Assembly (NCBI GenBank): GCA_947168815.1
Contig: CAMVNG010000002.1
Location: 62,001 to 126,000 of the forward strand
Direction: 5' to 3'
Source: an uncultured bacterium
GTDB lineage: Bacteria; Patescibacteriota; Gracilibacteria; Absconditabacterales; Absconditicoccaceae
DNA length: 64,000 nucleotides
Program-made: the position numbers and the translations under genes
Part shown: positions 7,826 to 37,087 of the stretch, in pieces
How positions within the stretch are numbered: position 1 is the stretch's first letter
Layout: each line of letters begins with the position of its first letter
Notes under the pieces: generated by a model
Database searches by the model: none
Seen by the model: only the letters and a program-made list of their open reading frames with translations
What the model was told of the DNA's origin: nothing

Positions 7826-10800
7826 TTATAAGCTGAAGAGTGTTCCTAGAGGAACAAATTCAGAATAGCTATAATGTACTTTATAATTCATATCCCAAAG
7901 TCTTGCTCTAACAGAGTCATCTTTTTGTAACGTATTTGAATAATCTGCAAATTGACAAGGACAAGAATTACATACAGGTTTTACTAGAGCACATCCATCT
8001 CATTCACAAAGAACATCTGGTAGAGGAGGACATCAATTGTCATCAGGATCTGCAGTACAATTGAGTTCTTTACATGCCTCAGGTCATTCTTTTCCAGGTA
8101 AGTCCTTACATTCATCTAATGAATCAGGAACACAATCACAATCTTCATCACATATAGGAACATCTCAAGGACAGTTTTCACAGTCTTCACCAGGATCTTG
8201 CTGGTGATTTCAACATTTAGTTTGTATTTTACAAAGTACGCAAACAACTCCTTCTGGCATATTAGGATCATTTGGATCACAATCTTCAATAGGAGAACTT
8301 ACTATTCAATCTCAACATACAGCCTGACATTTGTTTCAAAGATCAACAGAACAATTGTCGCACTGTTCATCAGGTTGTTCTTTTCAGTCTCAACAATCAG
8401 GTTGTTCATCGGTAAATCTCTTACAATCAATTCTACATTCATGGTCATTACCATTACCATTTCAGTGGTTAATATCTCAATGATCACATTCTTCATCAGA
8501 ATCTTGATGTCAGTCTCAACAGAAATGGTCTCAACCTATAAGTACACACTGTTCATTACAGATACCATTAACTCCATTTCATGTTCCATAATCACATTGT
8601 TCAGGATCTTCTTTAATACCATTTCAGCATGAAGCACTACATTTTCATACATCTTCTGAACAATTAATACATTGTTCTCAAGTATTTTTGTTACCATCTC
8701 AACACTTTTCTCAATGATTTACACATTTATCAGCAACGTCTTCAGCACAAGTATCACAATCCTCTTTTTCATCTCTTTCTCCATTTCAGCAACTTTCAAC
8801 ATCTGTACAAATCTCGGTACAAATTCCATTAACTCCATTTCAAGTTCCATAATCACATTGTTCTCCTTTCTCTGGTTTTCCATTTCAACACTTAGTTAAA
8901 CATTTCACTCATAAATCTTCAGGACAGGTATTACAGTTCTCATTTACATCATTATCTATCTTTCCATTTCAACATTTTGGTCTAACAACAGTTTTACAGT
9001 GAATAGTACATTGTCATAGTACGCCATTTGCTGTTCATTGATCACATGTTTCTCAAGGATCTGGTAATCCATTTCAACATTTATTGTTTGGATTAATATT
9101 CCTACAATTTATATCACATAGTCAATCTACTCAGTTTCCTGTTCAATTATCACATTCTTCTCCATCTTCTACTTTCTTATTTCAACAACTTCAAGTACAT
9201 AATCATACATCTGTATCACAATTAGAACAGTCTTCATCAGGATCTACTTTTTTATTTCAACAATTAGGATGGTTAGGATCGAAAATCGTACAACTTTCAG
9301 TACATTCATTATCTTTTCAGTTGTTAGGTCCATGATCACATGCCTCATCTCATTCAGGTATTCCATTTCAACATACTGTTTTTACAACATTTTTACATTC
9401 TAGCGTACATTCTCAATCTCTTCCATTTCTTTCTCAACGATCACATTGTTCTCGAGGCTCATCTAGATTCTCGTCTCAACATTTTGTAGCACATTTAGTT
9501 CATAAGTCTATAGGACATGTAGCACAAGTTTCTCATGCATCAATTTTACCATTACCGCATAGAGCTCAAGGTAGAATAGTCGTACAAATAAATGAACAAG
9601 GACCTTTTCAATTGTCTTCTCATGCATCACATTGTTCTCAACGGTCTATATCAGTATGTCCATCTCAACAATACGGTTTTCATGGCGTTACAACCATTTT
9701 ACAATTTTTAGTACAAATACCGTTAATTCAATTTCAAGAACCATAATCACATTGTTCTCATCATTCACGTATTCAATCACCACATGAACTTACACAAGCT
9801 CCAACATCTTCTTTACAATTGCTACAGTTCTCAGCTGGTTCAATGATTCCATTTCAACATTCAGCAGAACACTTTTTTACATCTGATTCACAGCTTTTAC
9901 AAGTTTCATCACCATCAATTTTTCAGTTAGGACATTCACTTACAAGTGTACAATCTATTTTACAGTTATTATTTAGTCAATTAAATGTTCAATCATCACA
10001 TTTTTCCGTTTCTTTATTGTGGATTCCATCTCAGCAGAAATCATCTCAGAAGCATCTTTCTCAAACATCTTCCGCACAAGTCTGACAGGTTTCTCAAGTA
10101 GTATCTCAATCATTACAGTTTGTGGTTTTTTTACAATCCTTTCAACAGATTGAACCTTCTTTTCAGTTATCTGTCTTTAAATCACATTCTTCTCATGCTT
10201 CCTTATCCCATACCCCATCTCAGCAAGAAGGCTTTCTTTCTAACCTACAATCTTTTGTACATCAACTTCCTTCTTTTCAGTTATCATCCTTTTTATCACA
10301 TTTTTCATCTCACTCTTGAATTCCATTTCAGCATTTAGCAGTTGTTCTTTTACAACTAAAAGAACATTTCCCATTAAATCAGTTATTTTCAACTCAATCA
10401 TCACATTCTTCTCATGTTTCAGGAATTCCATTTCAACAAGTATAAGAACATTTAGATCCGAGATCAACTGGGCATGATTCACAATCTTCTCAGACATCAT
10501 ATACTCCATTTCAACATTTAGGATGTGTTGCATCTAATATAGTACACATTAATGTACAATTGCTAGCTGTTGTTCAGTTTTTATCTCAAGCATCACATTG
10601 TTCACCTTGATCTGGCTCACCATTTCAACATTTATCATTCCATCAAATTAATCTACAGTCAGTAGCACAAATTCAGTTAAATCCATTTTCTAGTGTTCAA
10701 TAATCACATTGTTCTCAAGCTTCAAGTATTTTATTTCAGCATGAACCTCTACATGCTTTTACATCTTCACTACAAGTAGAACAATGTTCAGCTTTTTCAA

Positions 10801-33852: not shown

Positions 33853-33888
33853 ATTATTTTTTTGTAGGATATTTTAAATATTTATTGT

Positions 33889-33924
33889 TAAAAAAATGAG
33901 GATTGTGAAATCAACAATCCTCAT
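33889..33924 (-). terminator. Intrinsic terminator just downstream of the TGA stop of the TldD-like gene
   Basis: Minus strand ATGAGGATTGT-tgatttc-ACAATCCTCATTTTTTTA. Confidence 0.9.
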
Positions 33925-33930
33925 ATTTAT

Positions 33931-35604
33931 TCAGTATTCAAAGCTCGTTTTTTTTGTTCTGAGCTTTTCGGGCAGATACTTGTCTCTTTTAGAACTATAG
34001 GTATGTAAAGGTTCAGGTAATGGGTTTGGCGCCCAATTAATTCCATAAACACTTACCGCAGGGGCGAATTCCTCAGTTGGAACCCAACCACTTTCAGCTC
34101 CACAATATCCATTAGTTCTTCCATAATGATTACTCACTTCAATAATAGAACTAAGAAAATCAGTAAGGTTTGCAGACAATGTTCCACCGTGGAAATAACT
34201 CTTATTCCCGTTTTTATTGACTTTGATAAGGTAATCAACGGTGAGTTCAAAGGTTCCAGTCTCGATGTTTACTTCTCCAGCGTGAGATTCCACAATATAG
34301 TAGTACCCAAACTTTTCAAGAAGCTGTTTCTTTAGGTCGTCTAGACTGTGAGTGCTAGTACTATAAACCTTTAGGTTTGAAACACGAGGTTCTGGTTTTT
34401 TGGGACGAGGAATGATTTTCTCAAAGACATCACTATTTTCATCTTGTTCTTTAACAAAGCTTCCTGCAAGTGAATGTCCGTTATTCTCTTTGTGAAGACG
34501 TGCTGAAGAGTTCTTATCAAGAAGATAATTTTCAACAACTCCATTTTTGAGAAGACAGACGTCTTTTGCCGGGGTGCCTTGCATATCATACTCATAATGA
34601 GCAACCATAGTTTTATCTCTTGGACAGTCCCAAATCTCGAGATTCTTTAGAGCTTTCATAAAGCCATTCTTTGCTATATTTTTTCCGAGTTTGCCTTTGA
34701 ATATGGTCGAAGTTTCATTGGCAATGTAATAACCGGAAAGCATATGGCCAGCAAGGGCTTCATGACATAAGGTTGCCATGGCAGAAGGCATAAATAGATA
34801 CGGATAGATTCCACTTTCTAGTTGGCTCCGATTCGTACTATATAAAGCCTTCTGTAATTCATTTCGAATATCTTTAAAATAATTTTTTAAGATACCGAAA
34901 TTTAATGCCATTTGGCTACAGGAGACATCATACTCACGTTTTTTTGAGTTGAATAGATATCCATGAGCTCTTCCTTCAACAAAATCTTGATGCTGAATTA
35001 TTCTATTTTTTGAAGAATCAACAACAATCCAGACTTTGCGTTTGGAATATAGACATCCTGAAACACTATCAACATGAGGCACTAGAAAGAAATCTTGGAG
35101 AAGCTCAGAGAATTCAGTCTGAATTTCTTTTGAAGGATATTCGATTTCAGCTAGCTGAAACGCGGAATCATCCATATAAATAGGCGGAGTCTTCTCTTCT
35201 ACATAATACTTATTACATTTGGTTTTAGAAGTATAAAACTTATCGAATAGAGCATCAATAATGTTAGTAACTTCGCACCATAATACGGATAATATTCCTT
35301 CATAGGATTTCAGGTAGAGGTCTTGAAATACATCAACATGACGAAAAATTTTTGTCTTTTTTTCGATACATACTGTTATGAGTATTTCGGGAGTATCAAT
35401 CTCTCTATCAATGACACGTGCAATCCCATTTAAGTAAGATACTTCATAAGAAATATTACTTAAGAATGAGATACGAATATCACTGATTGAGTGAGCAACT
35501 TTTTCTCCAAAGGGATCTTCCCTTTTGAGTTTTAGGTTCATTGTCCTTTGAACTATGAGTTCAAGGGCTTGAACTAGAGGGAGATAGTTGAATGTTTTTT
35601 TCAT
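33931..35604 (-). CDS. TldD/PmbA-family metallopeptidase-like protein, no in-frame TGA, ending at TGA
   Basis: HExxxH in …ATLCHEALAGHMLSGYYI…, …YEYDMQGTPAKDVCLLKNGVVENYLLD…; 557 aa with ~28 Gly (hand count), all GGN. Confidence 0.8.
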   Translation of the reverse strand: MKKTFNYLPLVQALELIVQRTMNLKLKREDPFGEKVAHSISDIRISFLSNISYEVSYLNGIARVIDREIDTPEILITVCIEKKTKIFRHVDVFQDLYLKSYEGILSVLWCEVTNIIDALFDKFYTSKTKCNKYYVEEKTPPIYMDDSAFQLAEIEYPSKEIQTEFSELLQDFFLVPHVDSVSGCLYSKRKVWIVVDSSKNRIIQHQDFVEGRAHGYLFNSKKREYDVSCSQMALNFGILKNYFKDIRNELQKALYSTNRSQLESGIYPYLFMPSAMATLCHEALAGHMLSGYYIANETSTIFKGKLGKNIAKNGFMKALKNLEIWDCPRDKTMVAHYEYDMQGTPAKDVCLLKNGVVENYLLDKNSSARLHKENNGHSLAGSFVKEQDENSDVFEKIIPRPKKPEPRVSNLKVYSTSTHSLDDLKKQLLEKFGYYYIVESHAGEVNIETGTFELTVDYLIKVNKNGNKSYFHGGTLSANLTDFLSSIIEVSNHYGRTNGYCGAESGWVPTEEFAPAVSVYGINWAPNPLPEPLHTYSSKRDKYLPEKLRTKKTSFEY

Positions 35605-35724
35605 AAGCAATATTTTTTGTTGTTATTGTTTTTCTATTTATATTCGATTGTATATTACACAAATAAGATGTTTAATTCAACAAAAAAAGTCCTTACCAAT
35701 AAGTAAAGGACTTAATAATATTGC

Positions 35725-35897
35725 GTTCGTGATGAGACTTGAACTCATGACCTTCGCATTTAGACAAACCGACGCTTACAATAGCTAGCATTGACTGCAT
35801 TGAGATTTTTGGCCTATCTCTGTGCAGTTGGTAATACGTCATAGGGCTTGTTTTTGGTCCTAAGGGTGCGAAACTCTACCAACTGAGCTACACGAAC
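35725..35897 (-). tRNA. tRNA gene interrupted in the anticodon loop by ~101 nt; identity unresolved
   Basis: Minus strand: acceptor GTTCGTG/CACGAAC, D-arm GCTC-AGTTGGTA-GAGT, anticodon stem TCGCA/TGCGA, variable AGGTC, T-arm ATGAG-TTCAAGT-CTCAT; 108 nt lie between the anticodon-stem halves instead of 7. Confidence 0.8.
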
Positions 35898-36055
35898 AAC
35901 GCAAGCAATATGATATTAAAAATAGAAGGAAAAGTCAAGCTTATTTAACTTGCTAAAACCTAAGGAGAGAAAAACACGTCTTTTCCGCTTGAAAATATGT
36001 AATGAAAAGTTAAAGTAAAAACGAACCAAATTTTATTATTAAATAAAAATTTAGT

Positions 36056-37087
36056 ATGAAATTAGATGGAAAAAGCATCCAGGCTGCAATTGCGCATCTT
36101 GTAGAAGAATATAGACTTGATCCATATCAAGTGCTTGATATTATGAGATCATGAATAAAATCAGGATTTAAAAAAGATTATCCGGAATATAGAAAATCAG
36201 ATATTGCTGTAAATATTGAAGATGATTGATCTATTAAAGTATATAAAGTGCTAACAGTTGTTGAAGAATTAGAAGATGAAGAGACTCAAATCCTTCTTGC
36301 TGATGCTAAAAAAGAGAGAAAAGATATAGAAATTGGAGAACCTCTCTTAACAGATGTTACTCCTGAGAATATGGAACTTTCAAGAATCGCAGCACAAGCA
36401 GCTGCTCAAACTATTAAGCAAGGTATCAAAAATATAGAAAGAGAAAGATTCTACGATAAATTCCAAGATAAAGAGGGACAACTTTTAAAAGCAAAAGTTA
36501 TTAAAGTTCATACTGATAGTGTAATTCTTGATATTGATGGAACTACTGTAGTTTTAGCTCCTGAAAGTCAGATTCCTAATAGACCATATGAGGTTGGAGA
36601 AGAAGTGTTTGTATTCCTTAAAAAAATTAGTAAAGAAGCTTGAAGTATTGTTCTAGATATTACACAAACATCTCCTGAATATGTTGTTGCTATCCTTGAA
36701 AAACTTGTACCTGAATTTGAAGAAGGTGTTGTTCGTATAGATAAAATATGAAGAATAGCTTGAAAGAAAACAAAGATCATTGTTTCAAGTACAGATGAAT
36801 CTATAGATCCAGTATGAGTTTTTGTTGGACACAAATGAGATAGAATTAATACAGTTCTTTCTCTATTGGATGGTGAAAAAGTTGATTTTGTTGAAAATAT
36901 AGATGATCCAAAAGAATTGATAACAAGACTTTTAAAGCCAGCACAAATTAACTCTATAGATATTAAGGACGGAAATAAAGCTGTTGTTAAGGTTGATGAA
37001 AGTCAAAAGCCTTTGGCTATAGGTAAAGCTGCAAGTAACATAAAATTAGCTACTCAGCTTAGCTGATATTCAATTGAAGTAATCTAA
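36056..37087 (+). CDS. nusA: Transcription termination/antitermination factor NusA
   Basis: MKLDGKSIQAAIAHLVEEYRLDPYQVLDIMRSGIKSGFKKDYPEYR…VRIDKIGRIAGKKTKIIVSSTDESIDPVGVFVGHKGDRINTVLSLLDGEKVDFVEN…. Confidence 0.9.

Follow-up and report, generated by a model that had tools for sequence, protein, structure and literature searches.

What does a bacterial gene encode when its transcript would fold as a tRNA cloverleaf with a long insert in the anticodon arm: a tRNA with an intron, an inactivated tRNA, or a different kind of RNA? Such a gene lies on the reverse strand of the 64,000-nt stretch of genomic DNA analysed here (the window). The Rfam tRNA model RF00005 aligned to it over its full length (1-71; 48.1 bits, E 4.1e-9, gathering threshold 29), spanning 35724-35897 (-) from nt 73 to G1 and placing a local insert of 107 nt in the anticodon arm. 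Its G73 is followed by C, and CCA is not encoded. The neighbours are a TldD/PmbA-type gene (33874-35610, -) and nusA (36056-37087, +). The genome uses genetic code 25, in which TGA encodes glycine: the flanking genes are open only under this code, and a tRNA-Gly(UCA) is present. Default ARAGORN reported zero tRNAs in the window, and a whole-window Rfam scan at the gathering threshold returned an empty list, in both cases because of the insert. When long introns were allowed, ARAGORN called the gene as "tRNA-Pyl (cta)" with an intron of 101 nt. Standard annotation thus overlooks insert-bearing tRNA-like genes.

All four stems of the cloverleaf were fully paired, as a first-pass annotation of the DNA had stated. 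We observed 7/7 pairs in the acceptor stem (35891-35897/35725-35731, -), 4/4 in the D stem (35885-35888/35873-35876, -), 5/5 in the anticodon stem (UCGCA/UGCGA; 35867-35871/35754-35758, -) and 5/5 in the T stem (35744-35748/35732-35736, -). The 5' part (nt 1-31; 35867-35897, -) comprises the acceptor strand, the D arm and the 5' anticodon-stem strand, and the 3' part (35725-35758, -) holds the 3' anticodon-stem strand, variable loop, T arm and acceptor strand. The anticodon-stem strands are separated by exactly the 108 nt given in that annotation (35759-35866, -), which correspond to 7 loop nucleotides and a structured insert of ~101 nt. The gene therefore has the four-armed, paired cloverleaf of a tRNA (RF00005) and has neither the 7-nt anticodon loop containing U33 nor a defined anticodon.

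Two further species of the genus carry orthologues with an insert of 109 nt, G001 (L032, 692-510, -) and G002 (L033, 1541-1360, -). Across the three genes, double-sided changes that keep pairing occurred in the acceptor stem (2-71), the anticodon stem (28-42 and 31-39) and the T stem (50-64). They also occurred within the insert, where helix P2 is formed by ACAAGCC (35845-35851, -) and GGUUUGU (35764-35770, -) in the window, by CAUAAGC/GCUUAUG in G001 and by UACAGGC/GCCUGUA in G002; 7/7 pairs were kept and 5/7 were changed on both sides. This covariation, read from a hand alignment of the helices, provides strong but not deep support, because it comes from three sequences. The occurrence of a gene with a like insert in two other species, together with the double-sided changes in stems and insert, indicates that the tRNA-like gene is more than a chance object.

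Adjoining the anticodon stem, the orthologue alignment revealed a conserved motif (35857-35866, -), CCCUUAGGAC in the window and ACUUUAGGAC in G001 and G002. A scan of 360 genomes of the class found YUUAGGAC at the insert position in three species of one genus only. Folded without constraint, the 173 nt were more stable than shuffled sequences (z = -2.41). Constraining the fold to the cloverleaf cost at most about 1.2 kcal/mol relative to the free optimum in the window gene, G001, G002 and G034 (an insert-bearing gene from another genus), and in all four the insert then formed a rod prolonging the anticodon stem. At the level of predicted structure, these comparisons establish that the anticodon stem is followed by a conserved internal loop (CYYUUAGGAC) and, beyond this loop, by a long rod with covariation (P2-P4).

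We asked what the gene could decode if the insert were removed. Exon ends of the three orthologues were joined in all possible ways, and no splice choice gave one normal U33 anticodon loop common to the three, in agreement with the earlier remark that splice sites and identity are ambiguous. The window gene yielded CUCUAAA (CUA) or CCCUUAA (CUU), G001 yielded ACUUUAA (UUU) or AUGCUAA (GCU), and G002 yielded ACUUUAG (UUU) only. The sole uniform reading was Lys-type and would have an unusual C33. Elsewhere, the window genome encodes intact tRNAs for each of the 20 amino acids, including both Lys tRNAs (CUU, UUU) and Thr(GGU). We considered a role as the tRNA for a missing isoacceptor and rejected it: Val alone seemed absent, but a Val(UAC) gene sits truncated at the end of contig C10. 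We also rejected a tmRNA identity. The gene does not combine a tRNA-like domain with a tag reading frame, and the true tmRNA is a separate gene (G000:C7:5235-5612).

The insert did not resemble a known intron class. We observed no Rfam match to group I or group II introns or to any other non-tRNA family up to E = 10, consistent with the earlier failure to recognise a group I core. A covariance-model match to a known class, which the first-pass annotation had named as grounds for abandoning its interpretation, was thus not obtained. The ~101-nt insert has no group I catalytic core (such introns normally have at least 200 nt), no group II domain V or six-domain fold, and no bulge-helix-bulge, that is, a 4-bp helix between two 3-nt bulges on opposite strands. 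The fold of the window gene instead showed CCC, 4 bp and a long one-sided bulge, an arrangement not conserved in G002. The RtcB ligase (PF01139) was absent from 6 family genomes and present in 9/14 control genomes.

Comparison with described systems gave partial likenesses. Archaeal and eukaryotic tRNA introns have a bulge-helix-bulge and a canonical position at 37/38 (PMC4090602); cutting at 37/38 would leave the three orthologues with loops that match, and close by there is a 4-bp helix (UUAG/CUAA), but the window insert lacks the two 3-nt bulges and RtcB is absent. Bacterial tRNA group I introns likewise interrupt the anticodon loop (PMC3984707) and have been mentioned in CPR tRNAs (PMC8172020); the window insert differs from them in its ~101-nt length, in having no core that we could find and in lacking the conserved 5' U/3' G splice-site pair. 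"Enigmatic" introns of Lak megaphage tRNA genes (PMC6784885) are also unclassified inserts whose splicing mechanism is unexplained. They belong to the tRNA sets of phages and have been interpreted as introns, whereas the window gene is chromosomal, stands alone and has no restorable standard anticodon. Bacterial regulatory RNAs of tRNA shape, such as the yjdF riboswitch (PMC9142559), have no decoding role, as we predict for the window gene, but they are mRNA leaders and tRNA-like in shape only, whereas the window gene is a full cloverleaf and an independent gene. Theta ribozymes beside phage tRNAs (PMC10879173) also join an unusual RNA to a tRNA gene; they are found, and cleave, at the 3' end of the tRNA, whereas the extra RNA of the window gene is inside the anticodon arm. 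A literature search, with subscription journals mostly outside its scope, returned no description of this type of insert-bearing tRNA-like gene, and we regard its novelty as provisional.

A promoter scan identified a -35 hexamer TTGACT (35933-35938, -) and a -10 hexamer TATCAT (35910-35915, -) upstream of the gene, matching 10/12 consensus positions with a 17-nt spacer. Directly 3' of the gene, sequence and fold indicated a terminator-like hairpin followed by T7 (35682-35713, -), which a strict terminator scan did not call because of its long loop. The same promoter layout preceded six related genes. These seven insert-bearing genes, all found through one D-arm pattern and including three that are orthologues of each other, comprise the window gene, G001 and G002, the G034 member (L034 1525-1361, -; found in a search for tRNAs with long inserts) and three genes on small contigs of the window genome, C14 (L057 5179-5286 and 6479-6610) and C15 (L058 2023-2154), found in a search for a 58-88 nt spacing. 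Contig C14 carries genes for a Rep_1 replication protein and a terminase-small-subunit-like protein and is therefore plasmid- or phage-like.

A sigma70-type promoter preceded 7/7 insert-bearing genes, and the distance from the end of the -10 hexamer to G1 was 7 nt in 6/7 and 12 nt in the window. Among ordinary tRNAs of the window genome, 2/35 had a promoter 5-13 nt upstream, both at 12-13 nt. Terminator-like hairpins directly followed the insert-bearing genes, those on the small contigs included. All seven genes had N73-C74 without CCA, compared with C74 in 2 of ~27 ordinary tRNAs that lack CCA. The window gene thus shares the hairpin, the N73-C74 end without CCA and the insert with the rest of the family, and departs from it in its spacing of 12 rather than 7 nt. 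This membership and its distinctive promoter and terminator layout are absent from the first-pass annotation.

When promoter and D-arm pattern were run over 360 genomes of the class with the insert not specified, we obtained seven matches; six were insert-bearing genes and the seventh was an ordinary tRNA-Thr. We observed no insert-free homologue among 50 family genomes, where the top full-length matches were ordinary tRNAs (Lys, Thr, Ala, Met) at 75-79% identity. Sub-threshold tRNA matches in the complete relatives G007, G011 and G028 were tmRNA ends in three cases, and the rest contained no insert-bearing tRNA. The gene was not found among INPHARED phages, where matches were to ordinary tRNA arms only, and the window motif was not found in IMG/VR.

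The conserved motif, together with the 5' anticodon strand, was antisense to an invariant 23S rRNA segment, GGTCCTAAGGTAGCGAAA (E. coli about 1921-1938). In the window, the stretch at 35856-35872 (-) was antisense to conserved 23S rRNA GGTCCTAAGGTAGCGAA with 15/17 pairs. For each of the three orthologues, this segment was the best antisense match over all 16S and 23S rRNA. Against dinucleotide shuffles, the match gave P = 0.165 for the window, P = 0.005 for G001 and P = 0.035 for G002, three values that are not independent and that belong to an idea formed post hoc. We used E. coli rRNA as the reference because the genome's own 16S and 23S rRNA were not found in the stretches examined (small contigs and contig ends); they may be missing from the assembly. 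For the other four family members, rRNA antisense matches were no better than shuffles. We treat the 23S segment as a candidate target of the motif and as a lead only.

Small inserts were also observed in phage tRNAs. At least 24 IMG/VR phage tRNAs with varied anticodons carried an insert of 39-57 nt after nt 28 or 29 (L190:10274-10386 and 10535-10648; L214:5452-5564; L254, L200, L284 and L290; and at least about 17 further loci). Their removal restores a perfect anticodon arm, which makes the existence of tiny tRNA introns very probable. Sixteen of these introns could be aligned and had a hairpin in common, usually with ACAGCAA or CUGCAA after it. A covariance model of the phage introns recovered six further copies, all in tRNA anticodon arms and some outside the search pattern, and Rfam reported only "tRNA" and no intron family at these loci. 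We rejected the window insert as an ACAGCAA mini-intron: model R1 gave chance-level matches at host loci, and none of them fell on an insert.

Our preferred reading, to which we assign a probability of about 0.5, is that at least seven genes of this bacterial family, the window gene included, form a gene family of their own and encode leaderless tRNA-like RNAs in which the insert is retained and which have no part in decoding. The predicted parts of the window gene, namely the promoter, the terminator-like hairpin, the tRNA-shaped ends and elbow and the insert rod, are established at the sequence level. RNA polymerase would start at about G1 or within a few nucleotides of it and stop at the hairpin, so that little or no 5' processing would be needed. 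The tRNA fold, through its elbow and acceptor, would shield the transcript and may attract tRNA-binding factors. The insert would be retained and the RNA would not decode; its active part would be the extended arm with the single-stranded motif, which would bind either a nucleic acid or a protein. We favour retention because the rod is conserved, whereas an anticodon and splice motifs are not. Against it, the insert sits exactly at the tRNA intron site, and uniform removal gives Lys-type loops in the three orthologues, albeit with C33. The family may have a single function, but common 9-mers among the seven inserts occurred only among the genus orthologues, and the other members' inserts have no sequence in common with that of the window. 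More tentatively, these genes may make up a new class of small RNAs in bacteria, leaderless and present on chromosomes and plasmid-like elements, in which a variable functional arm on a cloverleaf scaffold replaces the anticodon, in the genus possibly pairing with the invariant 23S rRNA segment, which lies at the subunit interface. If the insert is kept, a tRNA-shaped non-decoding RNA with a swappable arm would be a new design of regulatory RNA.

The main rival reading, possible though less likely, was also named in the first-pass annotation: a small intron of a new type, cut after U36 or A37 to give a Lys-type loop or before U33 to give CUCUAAA (amber-reading, window only). Its place in the anticodon loop, with junctions that can both be joined to a 7-nt loop, is what an intron would show; C14b and C15 can yield U33 loops (UUUAUGA and CUGUAGA), and the phage inserts provide a precedent. 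However, every Lys reading has C33, G002 has no plausible U33 loop, and the family has no common splice motif. There was no match to the phage model or to an Rfam intron, no RtcB and no insert-free homologue, and decoding does not need the gene. If the insert is removed after all, bacteria without RtcB would splice tRNAs by a novel route. The CUCUAAA loop would also fit a decoy or suppressor tRNA from a mobile element, for example an amber-reading plasmid or phage tRNA fixed in the chromosome. Three members do lie on small contigs, C14 with its Rep_1 and terminase-small-subunit-like genes among them. We regard this origin as improbable: the window gene is flanked by chromosomal tldD-type and nusA genes, the anticodon is not retained in G001 and G002, and the phage searches yielded neither a homologue in INPHARED nor the motif in IMG/VR.

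The first-pass annotation had suggested a very small or degenerate group I intron or an inactivated tRNA. An insert smaller than known group I introns, isoacceptors elsewhere and a lost anticodon would suit a group I relic or a decaying pseudogene, but such decay is hard to reconcile with compensatory changes in four helices, a promoter and terminator retained in every member, and an insert alike in length and layout in three species. With the group I signal nil up to E = 10, we consider a relic or pseudogene very improbable and the least likely of these readings. The annotation had also proposed that an intact copy of the same isoacceptor, together with an absence of spliced reads, would mark a pseudogene. 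On the isoacceptor side, intact copies do exist for the Lys reading (CUU and UUU), but the gene is conserved despite them, so the rule does not yield that outcome. Overall, its observation was confirmed and its interpretation was partly supported.

Other unusual tRNA genes were encountered during the searches. In other families of the class, we observed two more tRNAs with inserts, of 36-48 nt (G235:C62:48283-48382, L293; G353:C95:9521-9612, L295). A further type of insert in phage tRNAs measured 51-60 nt, ended in GUUACUU and had a longer two-part hairpin (L198:-4091, L217:-2432, L240:-1490, L211, L175, L225 and L354:451). In a further IMG/VR phage tRNA (L326, L339, L348, L352, L358, L359, L365, L375 and L388), a promoter lay immediately upstream and the 3' acceptor strand CCCGGTT directly abutted a T-run, so this tRNA may double as its own terminator.
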